A stretch of DNA of 48,764 nt, from positions 1 through 48,764 of IMG/VR virus record IMGVR_UViG_3300041955_000315. One strand, written 5' to 3'. Shown piece by piece: positions 1 to 45,866 of the stretch (position 1 is its first letter; every line of letters starts with the position of its first letter). The translations under genes and the position numbers were made by a program. The DNA is from a virus. Below the pieces are notes generated by a model, which did no database searches, had not been told where the DNA came from, and saw only the letters and a program-made list of their open reading frames with translations.

Positions 1-1167
1 CGTCCTGGCGCGGCGCGCTGGGGCTATTGGGCGCCTTGCCTTGCGCGCAGCGGTAAGCCGACCCGCATGGCTGAATTGGGTTTCCGGCTTGTGGACTGCG
101 GCGAGGACGGACCGGCCGCCTGGGCGATCGCGGCGGAATGCAATGCGCGCTGGGATGCGGTGCGGCATTGTCGCGGCAACGTCCCGACAATGCCATTTCT
201 GCCGGCCGTGGCACCCGGTTCAATCGCCGAGGCCTTCGCGCGGATCCGAAACACATGGACCTGGCGCGAGAAAAAACCGCGCACGCGCGAGGATTGGCTG
301 CGCGGCTGGAAGCATATTGCACCATCTTTCGGTGAGCGCGCGCCGGCCGGCGTCTCGTTTGAGGAGATTGACGCTTGGTATGGCGCGCTGCTGGGCGACG
401 TCGGCGTGCGTGAGGCGCATCGCGCCATGAAAATCTGGCGAGCCCTCTGGCATATGATGGCAGGCCTAAGGACGGCCACCGGCGCGCTTTACTGCGACCG
501 TGCGGCAGATCCATCGGCCGGCGTGCGGCGACGCACCCCAAAGCCGCGCAATGCGATTTGGCTTGCCAAGGAAGCCCTGCAACTTGTCAATACCGCTCTA
601 GATCTTGACTACCTCGGTCTGGCGGCCGCCCTGCAGGTGGCCTGGGACACCATGCTTTCGCCGGTCGACGTGCGTAGTTTGACGCTCGCCCAGCTGCGCC
701 AGGACGGCGCTGGTTCGTTTTTCGAGCTTGCCCGGGCCAAGACAGGCAAGGCGGCGATCGGCACGCTCAGCGACCGCGCCAACGAGCTCATCACGGCATT
801 GCCCTACGCCTTGCACCCGGACGCGCCGATCTTTCGCACACGCGCCGGTGCCCCCTACCGCGCCGACAGTCTGGGCAAGGATTTTCGAGCGGTGCGCGCT
901 GCGATCTTTCCCGGTGATAGCCGGACCTTAATGGATTTCCGCAGATCCGGCGCAGTCGAGGCGACCGCCGGCGACGTCAATCCGGCAGCGCTCGCCGGCA
1001 AGATGGCAAACTCGATCGACGCCAATCGCGAGCTGCAGGCAACCTATCAGCCCCACAACGCGACGCTGGTGCGTTTGGCAGACGCAGCGCGTGCCCGTGG
1101 ACGCGATCGCCTTAGGTTTATGGAGTCGAAACGCGGAGTCGAATCGGGCGCTGAAAAACCTCACTAA
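1..1167 (+). CDS. Tyrosine recombinase (phage integrase), 5' end cut by the window edge
   Basis: The frame is open from base 1 and the residues before the first ATG (base 67) read like protein (GYWAP), as in integrases of Rhizobiales prophages, so the gene probably begins outside the window; 388 codons are visible. Counting from base 1, catalytic Arg I is R225 in SPVDVRSLTL. Box II reads MDFRRSG, with R314 conserved but Met311 where the His of HxxR is usual. The nucleophile is likely Y349 (TYQPHN), preceded by MANS where LGH is usual. The role would be site-specific integration and excision. It is the only recognisable lysogeny gene here and runs against the late block. The class is fairly sure; whether the enzyme is active is open because of the Met and Asn substitutions. 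Confidence 0.8.
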   Translation, partial: RPGAARWGYWAPCLARSGKPTRMAELGFRLVDCGEDGPAAWAIAAECNARWDAVRHCRGNVPTMPFLPAVAPGSIAEAFARIRNTWTWREKKPRTREDWLRGWKHIAPSFGERAPAGVSFEEIDAWYGALLGDVGVREAHRAMKIWRALWHMMAGLRTATGALYCDRAADPSAGVRRRTPKPRNAIWLAKEALQLVNTALDLDYLGLAAALQVAWDTMLSPVDVRSLTLAQLRQDGAGSFFELARAKTGKAAIGTLSDRANELITALPYALHPDAPIFRTRAGAPYRADSLGKDFRAVRAAIFPGDSRTLMDFRRSGAVEATAGDVNPAALAGKMANSIDANRELQATYQPHNATLVRLADAARARGRDRLRFMESKRGVESGAEKPH

Positions 1168-6055: not shown

Positions 6056-6909
6056 GGCGTTGCCCCAGTGCCAGCGGCGAGATCGGCGGCGACCGCCACC
6101 CAAGTCGCCGGTCCAGCCAAGCCGTCGACCGTGAGATTGTGACTTGCCTGGAAAGCCTCGACGGCGCGCCGCGTCTCGCGGCCAAAGTTGTCGTCGACCG
6201 TCAATGCCGGCGTCGCGCCGAGCTTATTGAGCGCCGCCTGCAGGTCGGCCGCGTCGTGCAGGCCTTCCGGTGCCGGCAACGGTTGAGGCAGCACCGGCGG
6301 CGTGGGGGAAAGGAGAGCCGCTATCATATTTTGATCATTGGAAAGCCGTAGCTCGGGCGCCAACGCGACCAAGCGCAGCATCATCGGGACGATGCCAATC
6401 TGCGAATCTGAAACATAGGGCTCGAAACGGCCGTCGGCGACGAATTTGCCTTCGCTGTAGTTGTTCGTCCCGGCCCAAAGGTAGGGCGTGTGTACGCCAT
6501 GGGAGCGATAGCCGAAGCCGTTGAAAAGCTCCTCTTCATAACAGGCGCGTTGCCAACTCCAATTCTCGGCGCCGACCGCGTCAAGATGGTCAAGGTGGTA
6601 GGCGTCGATGGCCGCCGCCGCCCAGCTGGCAAACGGTCCGCGCCCAGCCGGCACATGCCGCGAAACCTGGTTCCAAGGGTCGCCCTGCGCCGGGCTCAGG
6701 CTGAAAACGCTCGACGCTTCACGTTCAAATGAGGCCGCAGCGACGATCTTCGGCACGCCGGTCGCCGCGCAGGCTTCATCATAACGGCCGGCTTTGATGA
6801 AGCTTAAAAGCTTGCTGGCGACTGCTTCGACCACCGCCGGCCGCGTGATCTGCACGCGTGCAAGCAGGGCGGTGTATTCCGGCAGCAAAGTGTCGAAGGG
6901 ATGCAGCAT
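6052..6909 (-). CDS. Endolysin with C-terminal peptidoglycan-binding domain
   Basis: 285 residues. The N-terminal 190 form a catalytic-type domain with CYEEELFNGFGYRSHG and PYLWAGTNNYSEGKF, a pattern I know from phage lysozyme-like proteins of rhizobia; E in the EEE run is the likely acid. Residues about 218-280 are a PG_binding_1 domain (LQAALNKLG, VDDNFGRETRRAVEAFQ, VDGLAGPATW). The role is to cut peptidoglycan at the end of infection. No signal peptide. The start ATG overlaps the previous stop (TAATG) and the end is coupled to the amidase. Confidence 0.8.
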   Translation of the reverse strand: MLHPFDTLLPEYTALLARVQITRPAVVEAVASKLLSFIKAGRYDEACAATGVPKIVAAASFEREASSVFSLSPAQGDPWNQVSRHVPAGRGPFASWAAAAIDAYHLDHLDAVGAENWSWQRACYEEELFNGFGYRSHGVHTPYLWAGTNNYSEGKFVADGRFEPYVSDSQIGIVPMMLRLVALAPELRLSNDQNMIAALLSPTPPVLPQPLPAPEGLHDAADLQAALNKLGATPALTVDDNFGRETRRAVEAFQASHNLTVDGLAGPATWVAVAADLAAGTGATP

Positions 6910-7358
6910 TAGAGCCGGACGTCATCGGGCTCGAGCATCCACCAGATGCGGCCGACCAGAATGGCATCCGGGAAGGCTTTGGCAATGCGCTCCTCGAGCG
7001 CGTTCTTTTCGGCGCGATCGAGCGTGATCGCCGCGTGATGCTGTTCGGCGTCGGCGATGGTCATGGCGAGCTGCTCGCGTTTGACCTTGGCAGCGGCCAT
7101 CTCACCGCGGTCGACGTCGAGTGCTGCGCTCAGCGCAGTGATGCAGGCAAGCCCCAGCGTGAACGGCGCATACTCGCCGCATTTGGGAGGATTGCTGGTC
7201 AGATCGTTGCGCACGCATTGCGGCGAATACGGCCGGCCGTAGACGTCGGTGATGACGGCCGCAAAATCGATCTTGTGCTCGGCCGGCTTCGGTTTGTCCT
7301 CGGCATAGGCGGCGGCAGAAAGACCGAGCAGGGTAATGACGAAAAGCAGCGCGCGCAT
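6909..7358 (-). CDS. Secreted small protein of the lysis region
   Basis: 149 residues. A clear Sec signal (MRALLFVITLLGLSAAAYA, cleavage after AYA) leads to a periplasmic part with three cysteines (PQCVRND, PPKCGEYA, LACITAL) and a long charged helix (MAAAKVKREQLAMTIADAEQHH). The ribosome site GGGGAGA precedes ATG 7358. First gene of the lysis group. A spanin-like role in outer membrane disruption is possible, but there is no lipobox; I leave the function open. Confidence 0.65.
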   Translation of the reverse strand: MRALLFVITLLGLSAAAYAEDKPKPAEHKIDFAAVITDVYGRPYSPQCVRNDLTSNPPKCGEYAPFTLGLACITALSAALDVDRGEMAAAKVKREQLAMTIADAEQHHAAITLDRAEKNALEERIAKAFPDAILVGRIWWMLEPDDVRL

Positions 7359-7435: not shown

Positions 7436-8746
7436 CTAGAGATTGAGCGCCGTTTTGAGCACGTTGTAGATGGTAGTCGCGCCGCTCGCGGTCGGGTGGA
7501 AGGGCTGACCGGATTGGTAAAAGCCGTTCGCAATGGTGAGCGCCGCGCCCCAAGAGGCCGGTACAAGATTTTGCAGATCGATGACGCCCAGGCCGTACTG
7601 GGTGGCAACCGTGAGCACCGCAGTGCGGAAGCCGGCGACGGTCGCCGGCGACACCGGGCTGGCGGAAGGATCCGGCAGCATCGGAATGGTGAGCACGATG
7701 CCGTTGGCCGCCGGCGGCGCGATCGAGCCGGCAAGCAGATTGCTCACCATGGTCGAAAGATTGGATTCGTAAGTCGCCCCGCTGATCGCGCGATTGGCGT
7801 CGTACATTTCCACGGTGCCGAATATCAGCACATAGATCGGCGTGGTGTCGCTCGACCCGTAGCGGTTGGGCGTGAAGAGCGATTGATATTGGATATCGCT
7901 GGCGTTGTAGTCCGAGAGGCAGAACGAATTGCGCGCAACGACTTCGACCAGAACCTGGTTGCTCGAATAGATTGTGGTCGGATGCAATCCGATCACATCG
8001 ACGTCGGCGCCGCTGCCATAATAGACAGACATGGCACCGCTACCGGAAGGCGAAGCGGACAACAGCGAAACGAAAACGGTCGGCGTCGTGCTGGTGACGG
8101 TGATCGAGGCTACGGGCAGTGCGGTGCCCTCGGCGTAAATATTCAGCAGGCCCGGCGTGCTGCCCGAGAAAAGACGCGCGAGTGTCACTAGGTAGGTTGT
8201 CGCGGTTCCGGCCGAAAAGACGATGCCGTTGCTGGTGCTGGTATTGAAACCGAGCGCGGGCGCCGTGTAATTTGAGTAGCCGCTGTCGCTGCCGCTGACG
8301 TAATTGCTGAAGGGGCCGACAACCTCCGGGCTGATCGAACCCTCGGGCGTCAGCAGCAGCGTGCCGGAATAGCCGCCGTTGAAGGGAATGGTCGAATAGT
8401 CGTCGCTCTGGATCGCGCGCCATTCCCAGCCCGTACCGCCGTGGCCCTGGTGGCTGTCGACCTGCGCCTGCAGCTGGTAGGGCCAGCCTTGCGCGCGCGT
8501 GAGCCCGAAGCCCCAAGTGATCGAGTTGCCGACAAAGACCAGCGAGCGGCGTTTGGTCGAATAAACCGTCGGAACCTGGTTTTGTCCGGCCATGAACAGC
8601 AGGTAGGCCTCGGCCAGATCCGGCCGCACAACGAAAGGCGCCGCGATGCCGGTAGCGGCCAATCCGCGCAGGACCTTGCGCCGGCTCGGTAGCGACAATT
8701 TGCGCTGCGGTTTGAGCAGCGCCCGACGATCCACGACCAAGGTCAA
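7436..8746 (-). CDS. SGNH/GDSL hydrolase with twin-arginine export signal
   Basis: 436 residues. SRRKVLRG at residues 21-28, followed by a hydrophobic stretch (LAATGIAAPFVV), is a Tat signal. FVGNSITWGFG holds the GDSL-type nucleophile S75; a block near the middle (VLIFGTVEMYD) fits the Gly/Asn oxyanion region. H417 in PFHPTASG is the catalytic His, with Gln at the usual Asp position three before it. Such enzymes remove acyl groups, e.g. from polysaccharides. The start appears to be TTG 8746, overlapping the fibre stop (TTGA); GTG 8734 is an alternative. It is coupled to a tail fibre, so action on a surface glycan of the host is likely. Confidence 0.75.
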   Translation of the reverse strand: MTLVVDRRALLKPQRKLSLPSRRKVLRGLAATGIAAPFVVRPDLAEAYLLFMAGQNQVPTVYSTKRRSLVFVGNSITWGFGLTRAQGWPYQLQAQVDSHQGHGGTGWEWRAIQSDDYSTIPFNGGYSGTLLLTPEGSISPEVVGPFSNYVSGSDSGYSNYTAPALGFNTSTSNGIVFSAGTATTYLVTLARLFSGSTPGLLNIYAEGTALPVASITVTSTTPTVFVSLLSASPSGSGAMSVYYGSGADVDVIGLHPTTIYSSNQVLVEVVARNSFCLSDYNASDIQYQSLFTPNRYGSSDTTPIYVLIFGTVEMYDANRAISGATYESNLSTMVSNLLAGSIAPPAANGIVLTIPMLPDPSASPVSPATVAGFRTAVLTVATQYGLGVIDLQNLVPASWGAALTIANGFYQSGQPFHPTASGATTIYNVLKTALNL

Positions 8747-10599
8747 GGTGCCAGGCTGCCGCTGCAGGCAAAGGTGCTGGTGGTCGTCTGGAAACAGCTA
8801 AAGCCGGTGTATTGCGCGAGCGAGTGGATATCGCCGCCGGAGCCGACCGCACCGCCGATCGTGTAGATCGTGGTCGACGAAGCCACCAGGGTGACGGTAC
8901 CAGCGCCTTGCACCCATACATTGGTCGAAAAGTTTGTCGCGAGGCTGGTCGGGAAAGTGAGGTTGCAGGCGCCCGAACAGTTCATCACCACCGCGCCGCC
9001 GTTGTCGGCGTTGGTCAGGGTATGACTGTTCGTGAAGGTATTGACCGCGCTCAGGCCGCCGGTCGGGAAACAATCGGCGCTGGCGTTCGAGATGACGTTG
9101 CCGCTCGAATCGGTGCAGACCGCGTTGGCGATCGTGCCTGAGGTGGTCAGCCCGGTCATCAACACATGGCCGGAGAAGGTTTCGACCGCCGAGAAAGTCT
9201 GCGCGGTGCCGAGCACTGCGACTGTATCGGTTGCCGCCTGGAAGGTGACAACATAGGTCGAAGCCGCCGCCGGGGCTTCCAACGTCATCGCGCCCGAGCT
9301 CGACCCGTTTAGCTTGAGATCGCCGTTGTTGAAGGACTGCGCGGCGCTCCATGTTTGCGCGTAATTCAGCTCGGCGATGATGCCGCTATTGGCTGGCAAT
9401 GAGGCAGTGACCGAGCCGAGCGCACCGATCACCGTGCCGATGGTCACGGTGCCCGAGGTCGCATTGCCGAGCGCGATTGTGCCGGCCGTGCCAGAGGCAC
9501 CGAGGCTCAACGCGCCGGCATTGACGCTGGCGTTGGCGTCGCTGGCGCAGCCGCTCGAGCCGTTATTGACCAGGATCTGATATTGCGAGCCGCCGGAAAC
9601 CGAGCAGCCGCTCGATCCGGTGGCCGCAGCCCAAGTTGGATTGGCGGCAGACCCTTGCGTTTCCAGGAAATAGCCGGAGGTGCCCGGCGCCAGCACCTTC
9701 CAGACCGCCGAATCCCGGTAAAGAATATCGCCTTGCGTCGAACCGATCGCGGCATCGAGCGCCGCGCTTAGAGTGACGGCCGCGGGGTAATTGGAGGCGT
9801 TGCCCTGGTAGACGTAATATTGGGTGAGCGCGAGCATCTGCGCTGCCGCAAGCTGCCCGCTGTTGATCTCGGAGGCCGCGATCGATTTGCCGGTCAGCGT
9901 CTGCGTCGCCGCCAAGGCGACCAGCGTATCGCCGCTCGCGACCGGCAGATATTCGGTGATAGAGCCGAGCGCTCCGGTGGTCGGTTCGAGCGTGATGGTG
10001 CCGGAACTGCCATTGCCCATCTGCACGCTGCCGAGCGTGCCGGAGGCGCCGAGCGAGAGTGCCCCGCCGTTGACGCTGGCGCTTGGACTGCTCGAGCAGC
10101 CGCTGGCGCCGTTATTGATCAGGATCTGATACTGAGAACCGCCCGAGACGGTGCAACCGGTTGCGGAAACGGAAGCCCAAATCGGATTGGCGCTGCCGCC
10201 TTGCGTCTCGAGGAAATAACCCGATGTGCCGGGACCAAGCGCCGACCAACCGGATGAGCCGCGATAGATCACGCTGCCTTGGGTGGTGCCAAATGTCGCA
10301 TCGAGGGTCGCGCTAAGCGATAGGCCCTCGATCGTGGTTGCAGTGGTCCAGACCGCGACCTGCCCGCTGGTCGGGGTGCCGACATTGGACACATTGCCGC
10401 CGCCGCCACCACCGCCGAGCGCGTTTGTCACGAAGGCGGTCGAGGCGGCGCGATTGCTGTTGTCGCCCGGCGGCGCAGTCGGAACGATGCAATTCGGATT
10501 GAGCGTACCGCAGCCTTGCGCTCGCGCGGGCACCGGCGCGACGCTGACGAGCGAGGCAACCATCAGCAACGCAAGCAGGAGCATTCGGATGCTTTTCAT
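8743..10599 (-). CDS. Tail fibre-like protein with Sec signal peptide and a tandem 130-residue repeat
   Basis: 618 residues. An excellent signal peptide (MKSIRMLLLALLMVASLV, ending PARA-QG) precedes PTAPPGDNSNRAASTAF, a segment typical of phage fibres. There follow two related repeats (about 94-226 and 277-408) joined by TQTLTGKSI, another fibre signature, and a Gly/Ser/Thr-rich beta-structured end with cysteine pairs. It would bind the host surface as a trimeric fibre or secreted adhesin. An export signal is strange for a virion protein assembled in the cytoplasm. Its stop overlaps the SGNH hydrolase start. Confidence 0.75.
   Translation of the reverse strand: MKSIRMLLLALLMVASLVSVAPVPARAQGCGTLNPNCIVPTAPPGDNSNRAASTAFVTNALGGGGGGGNVSNVGTPTSGQVAVWTTATTIEGLSLSATLDATFGTTQGSVIYRGSSGWSALGPGTSGYFLETQGGSANPIWASVSATGCTVSGGSQYQILINNGASGCSSSPSASVNGGALSLGASGTLGSVQMGNGSSGTITLEPTTGALGSITEYLPVASGDTLVALAATQTLTGKSIAASEINSGQLAAAQMLALTQYYVYQGNASNYPAAVTLSAALDAAIGSTQGDILYRDSAVWKVLAPGTSGYFLETQGSAANPTWAAATGSSGCSVSGGSQYQILVNNGSSGCASDANASVNAGALSLGASGTAGTIALGNATSGTVTIGTVIGALGSVTASLPANSGIIAELNYAQTWSAAQSFNNGDLKLNGSSSGAMTLEAPAAASTYVVTFQAATDTVAVLGTAQTFSAVETFSGHVLMTGLTTSGTIANAVCTDSSGNVISNASADCFPTGGLSAVNTFTNSHTLTNADNGGAVVMNCSGACNLTFPTSLATNFSTNVWVQGAGTVTLVASSTTIYTIGGAVGSGGDIHSLAQYTGFSCFQTTTSTFACSGSLAP
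9376..10320 (-). repeat. Two-copy internal repeat of the 618-residue fibre
   Basis: Copy 1 (9922-10320) and copy 2 (9376-9771) both contain PGTSGYFLETQG, VSGGSQYQIL and ALSLGASGT in the same order. The copies have diverged at many positions, so the duplication is old. Confidence 0.8.
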
Positions 10600-10996: not shown

Positions 10997-12970
10997 TTAC
11001 GCCACCTTCCGCGCAGTGCGCGGCATGTTGTCGTTAGCGGGTTCGAGCGCGCCCATGATCTCTTCGAGGATGATGTTGCCGCCGTTGCTGGTCGGAAAGC
11101 CGCCGCTGCTGCCGGAGAGATATTCGCAGGACGCTTGATAAGTGACCGCCGAGGTCGTGGCCGGCTGTTCCATCCCCTGCAAAAATACCGGAGAGACGCC
11201 CGACACACCGGCAACGCTGGCGGTCGCGACGTTGCTGACTTGCGTGGCGCCGCGGAACACCGCGACCGCGGTCAAGCCGTTGTCGGTTCCGTTGATCGCT
11301 GTGCCGGCCACGGTAAATCGGATCAAATTGATCGTGCTGGTCGGTGTGATCTGGCGCTCGACGCCGGTGCCGACAAATGACGCACTGCCGCAGCCGGTAT
11401 TGACAAAGGTCGTCACCGATTGCGGACCCTGCACGGTCTGCCCGGGCAGCGGACAGGAAAACGGCGCGATGCAAAGCTGCAGCTTGGTCGGCGCCGAGGC
11501 CCAAGTGCCGGCGGTGGCAAGCCCGCTTGAATATTCGGCATAGCCAATGATGCGTACTGCGTCGTTGATGGTGGCCGATGATGTATAAAGCGCGCCAGCC
11601 GTCGTGGCGCCGACGCCCACCAGGAAGCCGTGATTTTGTCGGCTTTCCCATGAGGCGCAATCGAAGATGCTGGCATTGACGGTGCAAAGTGCGACCCCCA
11701 ATACCGGCGTTCCGGAATTATAGGCCAGGAACAGCCACAGCCGGAACGGTTGGCTGCTGACTGTGCCAAGCGTGGCGGTCGAGGGGATCGTGATCGAGAT
11801 CCCGTTGGCCGGCAGTGACCAAAGTGGATCGCCATTGGCGAGCGTCGGATCGCGGAACTGTACCGGTCCGGCATAGAGCGTGAAGGTGAGCGCGTTGGAA
11901 TTCACGCCGGCGACCAGGTTCGGATTGGTCGGCCCATGATAATCAGCCCACCAAGTACCCGAGGAAGCCGCATTGGTCCAGATGAAGACCCAGGAGCCGG
12001 GTGGGACTGCGATACCGGTGCCCGACGCCACATCGAAAAAGTTATCGGCGGCGTTCGGCGTGATCGTACAAACCCCGGAAACCGCAAAGACCCAAAAGCC
12101 GAAGCCCGCCCAGGTCGTGTTGGCGCGCGGCAGCGTGTAGGTGATCGGCCCGGTGCAGATGCGGCCGGTCTGGTGGAAGGCCGCATTGACGCTCTGGTTG
12201 GTAGAATCCTGCACCGGCGTCTGGTTGACGTCGATATTGTTGGCGCCCGAGACGCCCTGCTGCAGACCGTAATTGACGACACCGGTCGCCGCTGAGTTTA
12301 GGCCCATGGCGGTGCGGGCGGCGGAAAGGCTGGCGGCATTGACCACCGGCTGCATCGGCGTCGAAACCGTGCCGGCCGGCAGCGTCGAGCAGGCAATGAC
12401 ATTGCCGGAGGCATCGAAGCAAACTATGTGGTTGGCGCGTTGCGCCGCCGGCGGCAGCGTATAAGTCAGACCCGCGGGATCATTGACCGGACCGGCCAGC
12501 GTGCGGCTAAGGCCGCTGCTGATCTGCTGGATCTGCATCGCGAGCTGATCGAGCGCCATTTCGGTTGCCTGCGCGAGCTGCCCCCAGCTCGCCTGATTCT
12601 GCAAACTGGTGAGCTGCACGTAAGGCAGATTGCGCACGATCGTGAGCGTGGTGCCGGAAGCGATCGGCGTGCCGGAGGGATTATAGCTGACGGTGCCGCC
12701 GACGCCCCACAATGAAGGCGCAACGGCTGCGTTGAGGGTCACTTGGTATTGCGTGGTCCCCGGCCCTTGCGTGAGCGTGGTCTGCACACCGCTCGCGTTG
12801 GTGTAAATCACCGAGATATCGCTCGCCGCCACCCCGACAAAGGGGAAGGTGAACGCCGTCTGCGAGTTATTGCCCGGGATGGTGATCGAGTTGAGTGCCG
12901 AGGAGATTGTCGCGAGCGCGCCGACCGCGCCGCAAAACAAAATCACGACCGCATAAAACCATCTGCGCAT
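10997..12970 (-). CDS. T7-type tail fibre with N-terminal export signal
   Basis: 657 residues. The first 25 form a signal or anchor (MRRWFYAVVILFCGAVGALA). Residues about 30-160 match the T7 gp17 N-terminal tail-attachment domain: TAFTFPFVGVAASDISVIY, then TLTIVRNLPYVQLTSL, then a helix (ATEMALDQLAMQIQQI). The rest is Gly/Ser/Thr/Asn-rich fibre with scattered Cys, and it ends with LEPANDNMP. The attachment domain would normally dock to the tail in the cytoplasm, which conflicts with export. It starts one base after a tiny upstream gene. Confidence 0.75.
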   Translation of the reverse strand: MRRWFYAVVILFCGAVGALATISSALNSITIPGNNSQTAFTFPFVGVAASDISVIYTNASGVQTTLTQGPGTTQYQVTLNAAVAPSLWGVGGTVSYNPSGTPIASGTTLTIVRNLPYVQLTSLQNQASWGQLAQATEMALDQLAMQIQQISSGLSRTLAGPVNDPAGLTYTLPPAAQRANHIVCFDASGNVIACSTLPAGTVSTPMQPVVNAASLSAARTAMGLNSAATGVVNYGLQQGVSGANNIDVNQTPVQDSTNQSVNAAFHQTGRICTGPITYTLPRANTTWAGFGFWVFAVSGVCTITPNAADNFFDVASGTGIAVPPGSWVFIWTNAASSGTWWADYHGPTNPNLVAGVNSNALTFTLYAGPVQFRDPTLANGDPLWSLPANGISITIPSTATLGTVSSQPFRLWLFLAYNSGTPVLGVALCTVNASIFDCASWESRQNHGFLVGVGATTAGALYTSSATINDAVRIIGYAEYSSGLATAGTWASAPTKLQLCIAPFSCPLPGQTVQGPQSVTTFVNTGCGSASFVGTGVERQITPTSTINLIRFTVAGTAINGTDNGLTAVAVFRGATQVSNVATASVAGVSGVSPVFLQGMEQPATTSAVTYQASCEYLSGSSGGFPTSNGGNIILEEIMGALEPANDNMPRTARKVA

Positions 12971-30015: not shown

Positions 30016-31728
30016 TTAAGCAGCCGCGTCCAGACCGAGCGGTCGATTGTCGTTGGAAGGCGGGTCAAGATCGCGTTTGAGTAGATAATTATAGTTCACG
30101 TTGAAGCTGTTGATCGTTGCAGAGCCCGATCCCTGCTGTGGTTCTGCGCCGATCCCAATTCCGTTAAAGTATTCCGTACCTGCGATAATTCCCTGTGAAA
30201 TCATGAAAGCAAACATCGCTTTAAGATCGATCGTCTTAACAAGAATATCACTAGCATCTTGCGGCATGACCAAAATTTCGGGAGTAGTGCCGCTTTTCAC
30301 ACCTATGGTCCACACAAAGCTGTTGGCATCAGTATAAGTATAAAGCGGAGATAACCCATTTATATAACTGGAAAGATACGATGGCGTATGCAAACAAATA
30401 AAAACCTCAAAAAGATATGTCGAACCATCAGCGGCGGAAGTCAGATAGCCATCGTAAGATACGTCATATTTTGTCCCGTCGCCAGTGACGCTTATATTGT
30501 GCGCGAGCGTAAGCGTACTGATAGCACTGACTTGCTTTGATGTCGGCAGTATTGGAGCAGCGATACCGCTTTGATAGTATCCGTACATGATGCTTGGGTA
30601 GCTATAGGCATTGTACGTTGCAGGTGTGTTGGGCCACGACCAAGTAAGAACAGTGCTGTTCGGGAAAGATGCCACAGGGACAGAAATTGTCTGCGTGAAA
30701 TCCGTGCCGTTGACCAGACTGCCACGATTCCATGTGCTGTTGTAAGCAAGATAAGTTGCATCACCATAGGAAGCGCTGTTTGCACTTAACGTTAAGGTTG
30801 GCCCAGAAGGAGAATATGCTGTACCCCAGTAATTATGTTCATTGTTACTCAGTGCAATTCGCTGTGCGAAAGTCAGTGCAGCTTCAGAGAATAGTGCTTC
30901 AGCAATATACCCCCCAGCGAGATCACCACTGCCATCATTACCAATAAACAAAGGTGTCCCAGACCACTGCCTGCTGCCAATAGTTCCAATAGTATCCGCT
31001 CCGTCGATATTTATTATGCCATTTGACGCTGCACCGTTAGATACAAATTGCCCCGCGTGCCATGCGTTATCAGCGGCGGCAGCCGTAAGGATCGGCGCGC
31101 CGTTATACAAGCTCCATGTATTGCCATTTCCCCCAGCAACTTCCCCGTAAGAAAGAGCAGATTGCCCACCCATTATGTTCCCCGAAGCGGAAGACGTTTG
31201 AAAGGAAACAATGCTGTAGCTTACCGCGCTCGCTGTGAATGTCGCAGCAGGAGTATAACCAACCGCCGTGTTTGTGAAATCGGCGTAAGGCAAACCATTT
31301 GAACCCCCAGACAAATGAAGGGTGGCCGACGTTCCTGTATTTGGTGAATCGTTTCCGTTTCCAGTTTGGTCGTACCATTTAGCAATTGTACAAGTTGTCG
31401 AAGCACAAAAAGTCGTTGCTGTTGCAACGTCGAGGTTGCCCCTGGCAAGAACGTTTATATCTCGGCTAGTGCTATCACTTGCTCGCGTGATATTGATCGC
31501 TTTGCCACCGCGGATGGCAGAGGCATGGCTGCACGCTCGCAGGCTATAACAGCTGGACGCCGCTGCAATGTCGGCAGGCCCAACATAATAAAACGAAGCT
31601 GCAACTCCCCCGTCCATAGCAAATCCGCCGCCAATCTGCGGAGTGACCGAGGAAGCGTGCGCGGCCGAAAAGGCGACCGCAAATCCAAACAGAGCGAAAA
31701 GGAAATGTATTTTATTGAGTATCAACAT
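30016..31728 (-). CDS. Secreted fibre with AbfB-like lectin and GH12-like hydrolase domains
   Basis: 570 residues from ATG 31728, which overlaps the previous gene by 17 bases. A Sec signal ends AHA-SS. Residues about 60-300 resemble the GH54/AbfB catalytic-type sandwich (TTFCASTTCTIAKWYDQTGNGND). Residues about 320-545 follow the GH12 cellulase/xyloglucanase plan: YLAYNSTWNRG, LTWSWPNT, SYPSIMYGYY, then YLFEVFICL with E441 as nucleophile and AGTEYFNG with E519 as acid/base, 78 residues apart. The ending is LDPPSNDNRP. Base composition is clearly more AT-rich than its neighbours, a sign of recent transfer. It probably degrades a beta-glucan of the host surface; which glycan is unknown. Confidence 0.75.
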   Translation of the reverse strand: MLILNKIHFLFALFGFAVAFSAAHASSVTPQIGGGFAMDGGVAASFYYVGPADIAAASSCYSLRACSHASAIRGGKAINITRASDSTSRDINVLARGNLDVATATTFCASTTCTIAKWYDQTGNGNDSPNTGTSATLHLSGGSNGLPYADFTNTAVGYTPAATFTASAVSYSIVSFQTSSASGNIMGGQSALSYGEVAGGNGNTWSLYNGAPILTAAAADNAWHAGQFVSNGAASNGIINIDGADTIGTIGSRQWSGTPLFIGNDGSGDLAGGYIAEALFSEAALTFAQRIALSNNEHNYWGTAYSPSGPTLTLSANSASYGDATYLAYNSTWNRGSLVNGTDFTQTISVPVASFPNSTVLTWSWPNTPATYNAYSYPSIMYGYYQSGIAAPILPTSKQVSAISTLTLAHNISVTGDGTKYDVSYDGYLTSAADGSTYLFEVFICLHTPSYLSSYINGLSPLYTYTDANSFVWTIGVKSGTTPEILVMPQDASDILVKTIDLKAMFAFMISQGIIAGTEYFNGIGIGAEPQQGSGSATINSFNVNYNYLLKRDLDPPSNDNRPLGLDAAA

Positions 31729-32101
31729 AGAGCGTGTCGGATGTTGTTGCACAAGTCCCCTGCAGGGCATCGCTTGGCACATAGGGAAAATACCGCGTAT
31801 AGGAAGCACCTTGCGCCAATAAAATCGAGCGGCCGGCGGAGGCGACGGCGGTCCCCACAAACAGCCAGCAATTGTCCCCGTTCGTGTTATTGTTCTGGAT
31901 CGTCAGCGAGTGTCGCGGCCCTGGCAATCCGCCAACAAGGGTCACGGCCGAAAGTATCGTCTGAAACGCATTGCCGCTTGTGATGGTGACCGATCCATTA
32001 TTCGTCGGCGCATCGATCACCGGATTGTTTGCCGCCTGACCGAAGGCCAAGCGCAGCGATAATCCGAAAAAGAGCGCAGCGAGGATTGCGCAGCGTTTCA
32101 T
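31712..32101 (-). CDS. Secreted small beta protein partner of the GH12 fibre
   Basis: 129 residues from ATG 32101 (TGATG with the previous stop). A signal peptide (MKRCAILAALFFGLSLRLAFG-Q) is followed by PRHSLTIQNNNTNGDNCWLFVG, then GRSILLAQGASYTRYFPYVP. This is the same small beta-sandwich plan as the 121-residue protein beside the other fibres, so each fibre set carries one. Two cysteines (CWLF, GTCAT) could pair outside the cytoplasm. Probably a fibre cap or chaperone. Confidence 0.6.
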   Translation of the reverse strand: MKRCAILAALFFGLSLRLAFGQAANNPVIDAPTNNGSVTITSGNAFQTILSAVTLVGGLPGPRHSLTIQNNNTNGDNCWLFVGTAVASAGRSILLAQGASYTRYFPYVPSDALQGTCATTSDTLYVDTQ

Positions 32102-32715
32102 CACGGCTCGCTGCCCTTCTTGCCTTCGCTCTTGGCTTCGCCGAGTTCTTTCGGTTTGCCGGCGGTCTTTTCCTCTTTGGCCGCAGCACCAGCTTCCATG
32201 TGCGTCTGCATCTCCTTGGCGTGGCGCTCGTGCACGTCGGCATGCTCGGTCGCGTGCCGCTTGTGCATATCCGAGATTTCCGTGCCGTGGCGCTTGCGCA
32301 TGTCGGCGTGTTCGGCGGCGTGCCGCTTGTGAATGCCGGCATGTTCCGGTCCGGGATGGTCGCCGATTTCGTGGTGCTCGCCCGTGTGCCGCTCGTGCAT
32401 GTCGGCGTGTTCGTTCATGTGGCGGTCATGCGTCTGCGACATTTCGCGGTGATGGCGGCGGTGCACCTCGCCGCGCTCGGCGTGGTGGCGTTCGGCGACA
32501 ACGCCGAATTCCGCGCTGTGTCCGCCGTCCGGGCCCTTGTCCTCGCCGACTTTGCCGACCGGTCCGGGATGCTCATCGGTCGGCCCCTTGCCGGCGCCTT
32601 CCTTATGCTCGGCCGCCTTGACCTCGCCCTCGGCCTTCGCCTCTTGCTTCTCAACGCCCTTCTTCCCGTGCTTGGGCGGGTTGGCGTAACGCTTCGAGCG
32701 ATCCATCTCTGCCAT
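32101..32715 (-). CDS. His-rich protein with nine 11-residue repeats
   Basis: 204 residues, extremely charged. From residue 73 to 171 there are nine back-to-back 11-residue units, best copy MHKRHATEHAD; starts fall exactly at 73, 84, 95, 106, 117, 128, 139, 150 and 161. Eleven-residue (hendecad) periodicity is that of a nearly straight coiled coil. The N-terminus is Lys/Glu/Gly-rich and the C-terminus Lys-rich. No signal or enzyme motif. Histidine density suggests metal or nucleic-acid binding or a pH response, but this is conjecture. It sits in the late operon among small virion proteins. Confidence 0.7.
   Translation of the reverse strand: MAEMDRSKRYANPPKHGKKGVEKQEAKAEGEVKAAEHKEGAGKGPTDEHPGPVGKVGEDKGPDGGHSAEFGVVAERHHAERGEVHRRHHREMSQTHDRHMNEHADMHERHTGEHHEIGDHPGPEHAGIHKRHAAEHADMRKRHGTEISDMHKRHATEHADVHERHAKEMQTHMEAGAAAKEEKTAGKPKELGEAKSEGKKGSEP
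32203..32499 (-). repeat. Nine 33-bp units coding the hendecad array
   Basis: The 297 bases code nine in-frame 11-codon units with a H-x-R-H-x-x-E core in most copies. The unit at residue 117 (EIGDHPGPEHA) is the most degenerate. Confidence 0.8.
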
Positions 32716-33227: not shown

Positions 33228-33497
33228 TCAGCCTGTCTGCAGGATCTTGCTGGCCGCAGCGCGGCCGCGCATCGCCTGCTTCATGTCGTCGCGCATCATT
33301 TCAGCGCCGAGCATCAATTCGCCGACCTGCATGCCGCTGCCGGGCCATTGCACATTGCCGAGCGGGCTGACCGTGATGCAGGCCATTGAGGAAATCCGAC
33401 CCGAACGCACGCCTTCCACGATCGAATTGCACAGCTCGACCAATGCCGGATTGGCGATGAAAGGTTTGGTATTGTTAGCTTGGCCCGCTTCAGACAT
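33228..33497 (-). CDS. Small phage protein after the sugar cassette (89 residues)
   Basis: Starts at ATG 33497, overlapping the radical SAM stop by 8 bases. NPALVELCNSIVEGVRSGRIS, then a strand-rich part (MACITVSPLGNVQWPG), then a helix (LMLGAEMMRDDMKQAM). Soluble and compact. Because translation is coupled to the cassette, it is produced with it, but its family looks like a general phage hypothetical protein. Function unknown. Confidence 0.6.
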   Translation of the reverse strand: MSEAGQANNTKPFIANPALVELCNSIVEGVRSGRISSMACITVSPLGNVQWPGSGMQVGELMLGAEMMRDDMKQAMRGRAAASKILQTG

Positions 33498-34995
33498 GGC
33501 GATCCATCCCCGATGTTCTCAGAATGTGCGCAGGCAATGCAGTCTGCCCCATGGAATGCTCGTATTGCAGTGCCGGCGCGGCTACGTTCCAAGGCAGATC
33601 TAAAGCTTGCCTCACATTCATTTCGAGGTCGTTACGATGGTCGACGAGCGCGGCCGCGCTGAGCTCATCCGTCCAAACGTGGGAAACGTAACCGCCGTCA
33701 GGCGCGCCCTTGTAATAATCTGCCTCTTGCGTGTAATCGACTTCGCATTGGTAAAGCCGATCGCCGTTTCGACATTTGTAGATGTAGAAGGGCGAGGTAT
33801 CGCCAAATTGCTCGGCCTCATCGTAATAGGGCGAGCCGGGATAGGGGGTGATCACCGTCGCATCAAAATCATCCGGTCGCATTTTGATCAGCCAGCGCTC
33901 GGTGTCCTCGATCGTCGAGGGCGATTCGCCGGGATGCCCGAGAGACATCAACGCCTTGACCTTGAGGCCGTGCCGCCGCGCGATCTCAATGCACCGCGTA
34001 TTATCGGCCTTGGTTGCCTTCTTGTTGATGTTATCGAGGATCCGATCAGAACCGCTCTCAAATCCGACCAGGATCCAGCGGAAGCCGGCGCGGTGCATCG
34101 CGTAGGCCTGCGCATCCGTGAATAATTCGGCCTTGACAAATCCGCGCAAGTTCCACCGCTCAGCGCGCCGCACGCGTTCGAGCGTGATCTTGTCCATGAG
34201 CTCTTCGAGGCCAGGATTTATGTTGAGCTCATCGTCGTAGAACATGAAGCCGCGGCAACCGAAGCGATCACGCATCTCCGCCATTTCGGCAACGATGCTA
34301 TCGGCGCTGCGTGTGCGAATATGGCGCAGCATCGGCGAATGCCGGCCGGCGCAGAAGCCACAGCCAAACGGGCAGCCGAGCTGGGCAATGAGCGAAAGCG
34401 CCGGTACGCCGTCGACCTGATAGCGATAGCTTGAAACATCAACCAGATGCCGCGCCGGAATAGCGGAACTCTCTAGCTTTGCACTACTCTGCCAATATTG
34501 CGAATGCCGATCATCGGCATCGATCAAGCAAGGTGCAATGCAACTGATCGCTTCGAAAATGGCCTGTTCGCCATCGCCGGCGACCAAGACATCAAAATAT
34601 TCCCAAAGTCGATCGAGGGCGCGGTATGCGCGACCGGGGCGGCTTAGCTTTGCCTCGCGTTTCTTGGCAGCATGAACGAGCGTGACATGCGGACCGCCAA
34701 GGATAATGCGGTATTTCCAGCGCGGCACCAGCTGCTCGGCCTTCCTGATCGTCTCGGCAATTTTGACCGCCGCGGGCAGCTGCGGACTTGTCGCCGTGAT
34801 GCCAAAGAACTCAACGGACGAACGCGCGATATAGTCCCGAACCGCTTCCTCGTAATTGCGCACACCGGAAAGATCGAGCAGCTCTACCTTCCTGCCATCC
34901 CGTTCAAGCGCCGCGGCGACCTTAAGGACGCCGAGCGACATGAACACCCGCTCGTCAAGCAGGAAGGGCGACGGCGGAATTATGAGGCAAATCAT
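33490..34995 (-). CDS. B12-binding radical SAM enzyme
   Basis: 501 residues from ATG 34995; the longer open frame upstream lies inside the epimerase gene. The N-terminal 190 form a cobalamin-binding Rossmann domain (ICLIIPPSPF, FGITATSPQLPAAVKI, IILGGPHVTL). The cluster motif C208-x3-C212-x2-C215 (GCPFGCGFC) and AdoMet strands (FYDDELN, ILVGFESGSD, KALMSLGHPGES) follow. Members methylate or rearrange unreactive carbons of sugars, lipids and peptides. It overlaps the UDP-sugar epimerase by 41 bases, so a modified sugar or glycan is the most natural product. Such an enzyme is unusual within a phage structural operon. Confidence 0.85.
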   Translation of the reverse strand: MICLIIPPSPFLLDERVFMSLGVLKVAAALERDGRKVELLDLSGVRNYEEAVRDYIARSSVEFFGITATSPQLPAAVKIAETIRKAEQLVPRWKYRIILGGPHVTLVHAAKKREAKLSRPGRAYRALDRLWEYFDVLVAGDGEQAIFEAISCIAPCLIDADDRHSQYWQSSAKLESSAIPARHLVDVSSYRYQVDGVPALSLIAQLGCPFGCGFCAGRHSPMLRHIRTRSADSIVAEMAEMRDRFGCRGFMFYDDELNINPGLEELMDKITLERVRRAERWNLRGFVKAELFTDAQAYAMHRAGFRWILVGFESGSDRILDNINKKATKADNTRCIEIARRHGLKVKALMSLGHPGESPSTIEDTERWLIKMRPDDFDATVITPYPGSPYYDEAEQFGDTSPFYIYKCRNGDRLYQCEVDYTQEADYYKGAPDGGYVSHVWTDELSAAALVDHRNDLEMNVRQALDLPWNVAAPALQYEHSMGQTALPAHILRTSGMDRHV

Positions 34996-35929
34996 ACTTG
35001 AGCGCCCATTGAACCGTTCGCCGCAATCCCTCATCGAGCGACACCTTCGGCGACCAGCCGAGTAATGACCGAGCCATGCTGATATCGGGTTGGCGCCGTC
35101 GCGGGTCATCCTTCGCGGCTGGTAAAAAGGCTCGTAAAGGTCGATCAATCCGGGCCGCCCTCGCTACGGCCTCGACAAGCTGGTCGATCGTAATCTCGTA
35201 GGGATTGCCGATGTTGATCGGCCCGGCAAGATTGGAAGCCATCGCCTTCACCAGGCCGTCGATGGTGTCGTCAACATAACAAAAGCTGCGCGTCTGTTTT
35301 CCATCGCCCGCGACGAGGAAAGGGCGACCGGCGATCGCCGCAGAAACAAAACTCGAAACAACCCGGCCATCGGCTGCCGCCATGCGCGGCCCATAGGTGT
35401 TGAAGATCCGTACGATGACATTGTCCACGCCATATTGGCGCCGGTAATCGCAGCACAATGTTTCGGCGGCGCGCTTGCCTTCATCGTAGCAGGCGCGCGG
35501 CCCGAGCGGATTGACGCTGCCGCAATAGCTTTCCGGTTGAGGATGAACCTCCGGATCGCCGTAGACCTCGGATGTTGAGGCCTGCAGAAGCCGCGCATTC
35601 CATGCTTGCGCGAGATCGAGCATATGAAGCGTGCCGAGCACGCTGGTCTGCAGGGTCTTTACCGCGTCAGCCTGGTAATGCAGCGGCGAAGCCGGACAGG
35701 CCAGATTGTAGATTTCGTCGCATCGGAGCGGCACCGCGTTGCCAACTCGCGGATCTCTCACATCACGATCGGCAATCCAGAGACCTTTCCGGCCGAGCGG
35801 AAGATTATCACGGCTTCCCGTCGAAAAATCATCGATGACGAAAACTTCTCGACCATCATCGAGAAGCCGCTCGACCAGATGAGAGCCCACAAATCCGGCA
35901 CCTCCTGTTACAAGGACGCGCTTTTTCAA
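34955..35929 (-). CDS. UDP-glucuronate decarboxylase-like (UDP-xylose synthase) NAD-dependent SDR
   Basis: 324 residues. An NAD site (GGAGFVGSHL), IYNLACPASPLHYQ, LLQASTSEVYGDPEVHPQPE, Y148-x3-K152 (CYDEGK), RIFNTYGPRM, SFCYVDDTIDGL and DDPRRRQPDI all follow UXS enzymes closely. These turn UDP-glucuronate into UDP-xylose. The start is TTG 35929, in TTGA overlap with the previous gene and preceded by GAGG. It would supply an activated pentose to the glycosyltransferase upstream. Related UDP-sugar epimerases are less likely, given the ACPASP and EVHPQ segments. Confidence 0.85.
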   Translation of the reverse strand: MKKRVLVTGGAGFVGSHLVERLLDDGREVFVIDDFSTGSRDNLPLGRKGLWIADRDVRDPRVGNAVPLRCDEIYNLACPASPLHYQADAVKTLQTSVLGTLHMLDLAQAWNARLLQASTSEVYGDPEVHPQPESYCGSVNPLGPRACYDEGKRAAETLCCDYRRQYGVDNVIVRIFNTYGPRMAAADGRVVSSFVSAAIAGRPFLVAGDGKQTRSFCYVDDTIDGLVKAMASNLAGPINIGNPYEITIDQLVEAVARAARIDRPLRAFLPAAKDDPRRRQPDISMARSLLGWSPKVSLDEGLRRTVQWALKYDLPHNSAVALPA

Positions 35930-43971: not shown

Positions 43972-45312
43972 TTAGCAGTGCGTTACGATGCCCTTGGACA
44001 CCGTGACAGTCGCAGCCGTTACGCCAGAGACACAGTCAACGCCGGCGGTGGCTCCAACCGTATAGCCAGCGCTATTAACTGCCGACGAAAACACCGCCTG
44101 GCTCGCGCCGAGCTCAAGCGTATTGTTGCCGCTCGCCGCATCGGAATAAATCAGCCAAGATCGATTGCTGCCGCTCGACCACCAGCTAATCGCCTGCTCG
44201 TAGCTATTGCCCGCAAGCGCGATCGCATCCGGAGGGCTGAAAAGTGTGCTGTCGAGCGCATTCTGCCGGAACACGATGCCGTGCGCAAACCCGTGGGCGT
44301 TTGTTTGGCTGGCATCATAATTCGACTGAACGATCAACCCGACGGAAGCACTATACTCCGTGTAGTCCGAAATCGGAGTGCCGTTGCCGGTCTCAAGCTG
44401 GAATCCTACGGTGCCCCCAATTGTGGGAACATTTGACGGGTTGATCTCGATAACCGTCGAATACCGATTGACAACCGAAGCCTCGCCAAGACCGTAAGCA
44501 TACCCATTTGCAGTTAAACGGTGACCCTCACTATAAAAAGGCCAAGCGCCCAAAGTGGAAGAGCTGTCAGCGAAAGCATAGGACGAAAAGCCTTGCGCCG
44601 TGCCTGCCGTTGTGCTTGTGCGAGTGAATGACTGAACACCGCCGTAACCGCTCGCCACGCTGTTGACGAGTAGGGACGCAGTGATCGTTGCGCCACCTGG
44701 CGGTACGTAGGTTGAAGTATTTGCCCAATAGGCACCAATCTGCAGGCCGTTTCCAGATGTAATCCCGGGCGCCGCCGTTGTGGACCCGATGACAACGCCG
44801 CCTTTAACCGGGTTGAGCAGCAGAGGAAGCGGGTTGTTGAAATTCAGATCCCTGGTCTGGATCCAGGCAGGATACGGCGCCGAATCGTAAGTACCCATCG
44901 CCAAAGCCACACCGGCCGCGTCCCTAAATTCGATCGCGGACAGTCCGGTCGCAAGCGAACTCGGCGTGGCAGCCATGCCGAGAATAAAAAGAGGCGAATA
45001 GGGCGAAACAGCCGCGCCTATTCCCAAGACCGAAATTGAATTTCCAGCGGTCGCAGGACCGCCATTACCAGGGAAAACAGGAAACGAACCGGCCGGCGCA
45101 TTTGTCTGCAATCCGGTAAGGCTGCTCGTAGCGACGATATCAGCAAGCGTCTGCCGGATTGTATATTGATCAGAACCCGGAAACGCATTTGTGTAGAACG
45201 AACCAATCTCATTCGCCATCTGCGTTGGGCTTAAAACGCGCCCAGTCTGCGCGGCCGCGCCACTGCAAAGCGCGAGGAAAAGGCAAAATACCGAAGCGAT
45301 CCGCCGCATCAT
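43972..45312 (-). CDS. Secreted fibre-like protein upstream of the head genes
   Basis: 446 residues from ATG 45312 (MMRRIASVFC), in ATGA overlap with the previous stop. A classic signal peptide ends GAAA-QT. SPTQMANEIGSFYTNAF, DAAGVALAMGTYDSAPYPAW, NPVKGGVVIGSTTAAPG and the terminal TVTVSKGIVTHC are typical of phage tail-spike/fibre ends, with beta-solenoid-like Gly/Ser/Thr sequence between. It is far from the other fibres, among portal and head genes, and less GC-rich than they are. Either a host-range protein or a secreted lysogen protein. Confidence 0.65.
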   Translation of the reverse strand: MMRRIASVFCLFLALCSGAAAQTGRVLSPTQMANEIGSFYTNAFPGSDQYTIRQTLADIVATSSLTGLQTNAPAGSFPVFPGNGGPATAGNSISVLGIGAAVSPYSPLFILGMAATPSSLATGLSAIEFRDAAGVALAMGTYDSAPYPAWIQTRDLNFNNPLPLLLNPVKGGVVIGSTTAAPGITSGNGLQIGAYWANTSTYVPPGGATITASLLVNSVASGYGGVQSFTRTSTTAGTAQGFSSYAFADSSSTLGAWPFYSEGHRLTANGYAYGLGEASVVNRYSTVIEINPSNVPTIGGTVGFQLETGNGTPISDYTEYSASVGLIVQSNYDASQTNAHGFAHGIVFRQNALDSTLFSPPDAIALAGNSYEQAISWWSSGSNRSWLIYSDAASGNNTLELGASQAVFSSAVNSAGYTVGATAGVDCVSGVTAATVTVSKGIVTHC

Positions 45313-45866
45313 TGCAGCCGCGCGCTCCGGCCACCCCATTCGGAAGCAACCCTAAGCGGCGAGCTCGCGATCGCCATGTCGTGCGCCTTGTCGCGCATCA
45401 TGTCGAATTGATTGGCATAACGCGTCCAGCGCAGATCCATGCGCTGGCCGAGCGCTATCTGCCGCGCGCCATTGCCGGCATCACGCAAGCCGTTGAGGAT
45501 GCGGCTATTGGCGTCGGTCCAGCTCATCTCGCCGCCGAAGACTTGCGCGCTGTCTTTCGCGTCTTCCGGGCGATTGAAACCAGCTTCTTGCACCACGGCT
45601 TTCCGCAGCTGGTCGAGGAACGCGGCGAGCGCGTTCCATAAATCGGGGTTTTTCCAGCGCGCCATGTTACGGGCGCCGTCCGAAGCAAGTTTAAGGCCCT
45701 CGACAATGCGCTCATAGCTTTCGAATTCGCGCATCAAGGTGCCGCGCTTTTCCTGGGCGACTTCCTCCGTGACCGGCGTGGCCGGATCGAAGGCAGCGGT
45801 ATCGTCGCCAAAATCTTGCCCCTGCGCTGCAGCACGCACGGCAGTTTTTTCGTCAAGCTCGCTCAT
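45309..45866 (-). CDS. Helical head-region protein (185 residues)
   Basis: An acidic N-terminus (ELDEKTAVRAAAQGQDFGDD) is followed by long helices (TLMREFESYERIVEGLKLASDG, LAAFLDQLRKAVVQEAGF, ANSRILNGLRDAGNGARQIALGQRMDLRWTRY). No enzymatic motif or signal. It overlaps the previous gene by 14 bases and the secreted fibre-like gene by ATGA. Located right after the portal, it may be a head-completion or portal-associated protein. Confidence 0.6.
   Translation of the reverse strand: MSELDEKTAVRAAAQGQDFGDDTAAFDPATPVTEEVAQEKRGTLMREFESYERIVEGLKLASDGARNMARWKNPDLWNALAAFLDQLRKAVVQEAGFNRPEDAKDSAQVFGGEMSWTDANSRILNGLRDAGNGARQIALGQRMDLRWTRYANQFDMMRDKAHDMAIASSPLRVASEWGGRSARLQ

Follow-up and report, generated by a model that had tools for sequence, protein, structure and literature searches.

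The window analysed here, the whole 48,764-nucleotide stretch of IMG/VR record IMGVR_UViG_3300041955_000315, belongs to a soil-type bacterial virus of the epsilon15/phiV10-like podovirus lineage. It carries an intact open reading frame at 30016–31728 for which the original prediction had the coordinates and the length of 570 residues right; the gene lies on the minus strand. The features of the locus are as follows.

30016..31728, minus strand: open reading frame of 570 amino acids, comprising a Sec signal, an AbfB-N-type sandwich and a GH12-type domain
31654..31728, minus strand: Sec signal peptide, residues 1–25, cleavage between AHA and SS (sequence and rule-based scan)
30814..31653, minus strand: N-terminal sandwich, residues ~26–305, the first half homologous to GH54 AbfB
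30088..30753, minus strand: GH12-type domain, residues ~326–547
30406..30408, minus strand: E441, in the GH12 nucleophile column (E-V-F-I-C; usual in GH12, E-x-M-x-W)
30142..30144, minus strand: E529, in the GH12 acid/base column (GIGAEP)
30172..30174, minus strand: E519, previously proposed as the second glutamate; in no GH12 catalytic column
31712..32104, minus strand: 130-residue Sec-signal protein upstream of the GH12 gene, in the same island

The Sec signal claimed earlier is present, the N-terminus of the 570-residue protein reading MLILNKIHFLFALFGFAVAFSAAHA followed by SS; signal calls here come from inspection and a simple rule-based scan, not SignalP. A GTG at 31752, 8 codons upstream of the ATG, is a possible alternative start that retains the hydrophobic stretch. 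In the 130-residue gene the ATG overlaps the stop of the preceding gene, and the end overlaps the start of the GH12 gene. Modeling of the whole protein by AlphaFold from a single sequence gave a pLDDT of 31.5.

The AbfB-type sandwich proposed for the N-terminal part is borne out by two comparisons. Residues 74–189 match Pfam PF09206 (ArabFuran-catal) with 45 bits (E=1e-11, cut-off 25), the match spanning profile positions 27–140 of 315 only, and a profile of the N-terminal domain that includes phage relatives aligns with residues 2–87 of the AbfB structure 1wd3 (E=1.4e-11), CASTTC falling on its CANTTC cysteine pair. The likeness to the GH54 arabinofuranosidase extends over its first ~90 residues, the CxxxxC pair among them, whereas the remainder of its catalytic domain is unmatched in the window protein, the N-terminal-domain profile matching nothing in 1wd3 beyond residue 87. 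Because no match extends past these first ~90 residues, GH54 catalysis is unsupported although the sandwich is real. Full GH54 activity was rejected, the catalytic half of 1wd3 having no counterpart and no GH54 active site having been found. In the phage relatives L002–L009 the same domain is joined to other modules and no GH12 part is present, consistent with a general module for binding or building. The sandwich appears LamG/ConA-like and is probably carbohydrate-binding.

The C-terminal region (residues ~326–547) is a divergent GH12 (cellulase/xyloglucanase) domain. The Pfam GH12 model (PF01670) gives 14–14.7 bits (E=0.00127 over the record), under its cut-off of 27, and phmmer against the PDB puts GH12 enzymes at the top ranks (7mks/7mkr, E=0.006; 4h7m, E=0.14). 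A GH12-only profile (A5), built without phage sequences, scores 50.5 bits on the domain against a maximum of 11.7 in 2000 shuffles. The original prediction had suggested HMM-HMM comparison or structure prediction against GH12 as the check, and both returned the family: hhalign gave Prob 97.1 and E=5e-11 for the domain alone, and Prob 98.1 and E=9e-14 once the relative from a second phage, L025, was added, while an AlphaFold model of residues 318–552 from five sequences (pLDDT 80.3, pTM 0.83) has the GH12 jelly-roll fold. The top 50 listed Foldseek matches in the PDB are all GH12, the best being the xyloglucanase XEG 3vl8 (E=7e-13), with TM values of 0.74/0.78. As the alignment supplied to AlphaFold held three ordinary GH12 rows, the evidence from fold and from homology is not wholly independent. 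The GH12 assignment made by the original prediction is thus upheld by profile, hhalign, relatives over the Pfam cut-off and fold search alike. Some other jelly roll with an accidental resemblance to GH12 is extremely improbable: the 14.7 bits from Pfam alone and the abundance of beta-sandwich proteins in phages would suit it, but it is contradicted by the shuffles, by hhalign, by two relatives that exceed the Pfam threshold and by the fold search.

With XEG 3vl8, XEG1 9ktq, Cel12A 1h8v and GuxA 7mkr the domain shares the jelly roll over its whole length, both catalytic glutamate columns, the YP and D..L segments and the G-x-E block, but it is only ~10–21% identical to them in structural alignments and has ExFxC in place of ExMxW. 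It also differs from ordinary GH12s in scoring below the Pfam cut-off on its own, in its fusion to an AbfB-N-type sandwich and in its location in a phage.

A phage relative was found by scanning IMG/VR with an alignment in which known GH12s were included, in phage IMGVR_UViG_3300036800_000197 (L025). This 344-residue protein is 35% identical to the window protein over 210 residues (E=1e-31), exceeds the Pfam GH12 cut-off of 27 (27.9 bits, 29.4 for its domain) and matches the GH12 structure 1oa4 (E=8e-5). The two share the GH12-type domain, a Sec-like start (by inspection), the same altered motif positions and a place among structural genes; L025 differs in its P22-like coat lineage, in its other N-terminal part and in reaching the Pfam cut-off. 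The nearest annotated bacterial relatives are a hypothetical protein from an Azospirillum plasmid, WP_137117941.1, and its kin (28% identity over 94% of the domain, E to 1e-13), scoring 37.5 bits against the same cut-off. WP_137117941.1 has the NG-DFTQ-I and FPN-TV-WSWP segments in common with the window protein, but it is bacterial, retains the M and W of ExMxW and has no apparent Sec signal. In one such plasmid (L046:11021-12795) the GH12, labeled hypothetical, directly follows a sugar-transferase/Caps_synth gene.

In the tree, the window protein is sister to L025 and then to Azospirillum with 97–99% support, a placement that carries a long-branch warning. The GH12 of an actinophage, L029, lies elsewhere, among actinobacterial GH12s, and since the window protein and L025 occupy another branch, phages seem to have captured GH12 in at least two separate events. 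The window phage, L025 and L029 are the three GH12-bearing lineages found in IMG/VR. On the L029 phage contig (7290-9473), the GH12 domain is near a tail-fibre-like gene and is directly followed by a gene of GH26, a mannanase family.

GH12 enzymes use two catalytic glutamates, E117 and E216 in NopAA (PMC7303141). Both the nucleophile and the acid/base column hold Glu in 20/20 aligned rows, the window protein contributing E441 and E529. E441 had been correctly picked out, being the residue in the nucleophile column. The second glutamate had been placed at E519 in GTEYF, whereas the acid/base column holds E529 in GIGAEP, so the spacing is 88 residues and not the 78 given before. In T. reesei Cel12A the catalytic pair E116 and E200 are 84 apart. 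E519, which the two phage proteins share, was rejected as a catalytic residue, its column being mostly D, Q, S, W or A in other GH12s.

The surroundings of the nucleophile depart from the family. In the 20-row alignment ExMxW is replaced by E441-V-F443-I-C445 in the window protein, which lacks both M and W, and by E-F-I-I-V in L025; M and W are retained in L029 and Azospirillum. Work on the archaeal GH12 7S8K found that M149A abolishes activity and W151A leaves 1.5%, and that W151Q, the residue naturally present in TMDG_GH12-1, keeps about half (PMC12265866). The GH12-derived domain might accordingly be a non-catalytic binder that holds glucan and no longer cuts it. F443 and C445 (I and V in L025) replacing a near-universal M and W would fit, as mutations there disable a GH12 that has been studied (PMC12265866), but two phage proteins that share just 35% identity retain both catalytic glutamates and the GxE block, TMDG_GH12-1 does naturally with Q instead of W, and we regard loss of cutting as unlikely. 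Catalysis is likely though not assured, given ExFxC beside the nucleophile and a Pfam score below cut-off for the window protein alone, and the choice of substrate may differ; cutting of cellulose or beta-glucan is plausible. For the same two features, motif and Pfam score, we describe the domain as a divergent GH12 homologue and do not file it as a proven enzyme. If active, it would offer a natural test of which residues GH12s need.

The gene was described as AT-richer than its surroundings and newly captured, and both points hold. Its GC content is 0.488 and its GC3 0.454, against GC3 values of 0.62–0.82 in the other genes measured. Thirteen related phage loci have several of the same structural genes and lack both the GH12 gene and its upstream neighbor; in L012, L013 and L014 the genes flanking the GH12 island adjoin each other. 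The major head protein of L013 is 92% identical to that of the window phage, implying that the gain here (or the loss there) was recent. In the preferred explanation the gene is an accessory one that came from a bacterium, the nearest annotated relatives being the GH12s of Azospirillum plasmids. A rhizobial host, as suggested by the original prediction, is unsupported, although these nearest annotated bacterial relatives belong to plant-associated Azospirillum. Elsewhere in the window, between head and tail genes, 33490-35929 (minus strand) encodes an accessory B12-binding radical SAM protein and a nucleotide-sugar epimerase.

The protein had also been called a fibre, for which we found no support: it has no tail anchor and no PHROG tail-family match, and the PHROG tail-anchor match, over residues 22–160, is in the product of another gene, a tail-fibre gene located at 10997-12970 (minus strand). 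That gene starts with a Sec-like segment, MRRWFYAVVILFCGAVGA, as do its homologues L050 and L052 ahead of the same anchor domain, and L051 and L053 are without one. The Sec signal of the GH12 protein, with similar starts in L025 and several neighbors, points toward export, but a signal is also compatible with a virion part. The protein could instead be a depolymerase borne on the tail, removing a glucan coat while the phage adsorbs, in the manner of phage tail glycosidases. The Sec-like starts of the anchor-bearing gene and two of its four homologues, the position of the GH12 gene within the structural operon, the tail-fibre-like gene adjoining the L029 GH12, and Erwinia phage S6, which encodes GH5/GH48 enzymes and has cellulose as its first receptor (PMC9544554), are in line with this. 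The missing anchor and PHROG tail match speak against it, as do a cleavable Sec signal, which would remove the protein from cytoplasmic assembly, and the absence of GH12 from 13 related phages, which makes the protein dispensable; we consider virion attachment rather unlikely.

Late expression is likely, because the GH12 gene runs with the late strand, its ends overlap those of its neighbors and there is no promoter excess. The model we prefer, with moderate confidence, is of a GH12 gene captured from a bacterium into the late operon, its product made alongside virion proteins. The protein would be exported via Sec, its signal cleaved after AHA, and act outside the cytoplasm. There the AbfB-type sandwich would hold a polysaccharide while the GH12-type domain would cut a beta-1,4-glucan-like chain, with E441 serving as the nucleophile and E529 as the acid/base. 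The target chain could lie in the host envelope, a biofilm matrix or the surroundings, and the product is most likely soluble, released when the cell lyses, rather than bound to the virion.

An auxiliary metabolic or conversion gene would place the benefit elsewhere, the enzyme digesting plant or microbial beta-glucan to the advantage of the bacterium, infected or lysogenic. In its favor are reports of glycoside hydrolases from soil viruses, including a GH5 with demonstrated activity (PMC6786970, PMC6460857), the integrase of the phage (phrog_1), the xyloglucanase that heads the structural matches and a known GH12 xyloglucanase from rhizobia. However, the gene has overlapping ends within the late operon and no promoter signal of its own, and no sugar-uptake partner is seen, which leaves such a role distinctly improbable. 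The integrase is a candidate tyrosine integrase at 67-1167 (plus strand; phrog_1, E=8.5e-13), and the phage may be temperate.

Phage and soil-virus glycosidases, endoglucanases included, are already known (PMC9544554, PMC6786970, PMC6460857). Like the enzyme proposed here, Erwinia phage S6 gp095 (GH5) and gp094 (GH48) are directed at beta-1,4-glucan and come from a variable region of a phage, but their families and folds are other than GH12 (PMC9544554). The view that GH12 is foreign to known phage proteins agrees with our searches: BFVD has no GH12 fold match at E≤1e-3; PHROGs has no family for the window protein or for the L025, L029 and Azospirillum relatives; the 50,697 GenBank phages of INPHARED have no match to the full protein, its C-terminal part or a GH12 fragment; and our literature search found no GH12 as a phage part. 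Scanning IMG/VR and GTDB genomes with the C-terminal part as a single protein likewise gave no match. What is new, phage cellulases of GH5/GH48 being known, is one homologous GH12 branch in two unrelated podovirus lineages and another in an actinophage. If active, the enzyme could reveal which glucans coat soil bacteria or surround them.

A more speculative model, which we consider very improbable, is a phage-adapted GH12 branch whose rebuilt active site (ExFxC, ExIxV) would cut a polymer that other GH12s do not. It would be used by phages that export some of their host-range kit (the GH12 enzyme, a GDSL hydrolase and even tail-fibre proteins with signal peptides) via Sec and Tat, the maturation of attachment parts or their addition to virions then taking place outside the cytoplasm.

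Further signal-bearing genes were noted in the window and in related phages. Sec-like starts are found in the late-strand reading frames 6909-7358, 8743-10599, 31712-32104 and 43972-45339 (minus strand), one of which encodes a 618-residue repetitive fibre-like protein, and small genes with Sec signals also occur near the head-tail region of the related phages L012, L013, L014 and L021. The gene at 7436-8746 (minus strand) encodes a GDSL/SGNH hydrolase (PF13472) whose start, SRRKVLRGLAATGIAAPFVV, is Tat-like.
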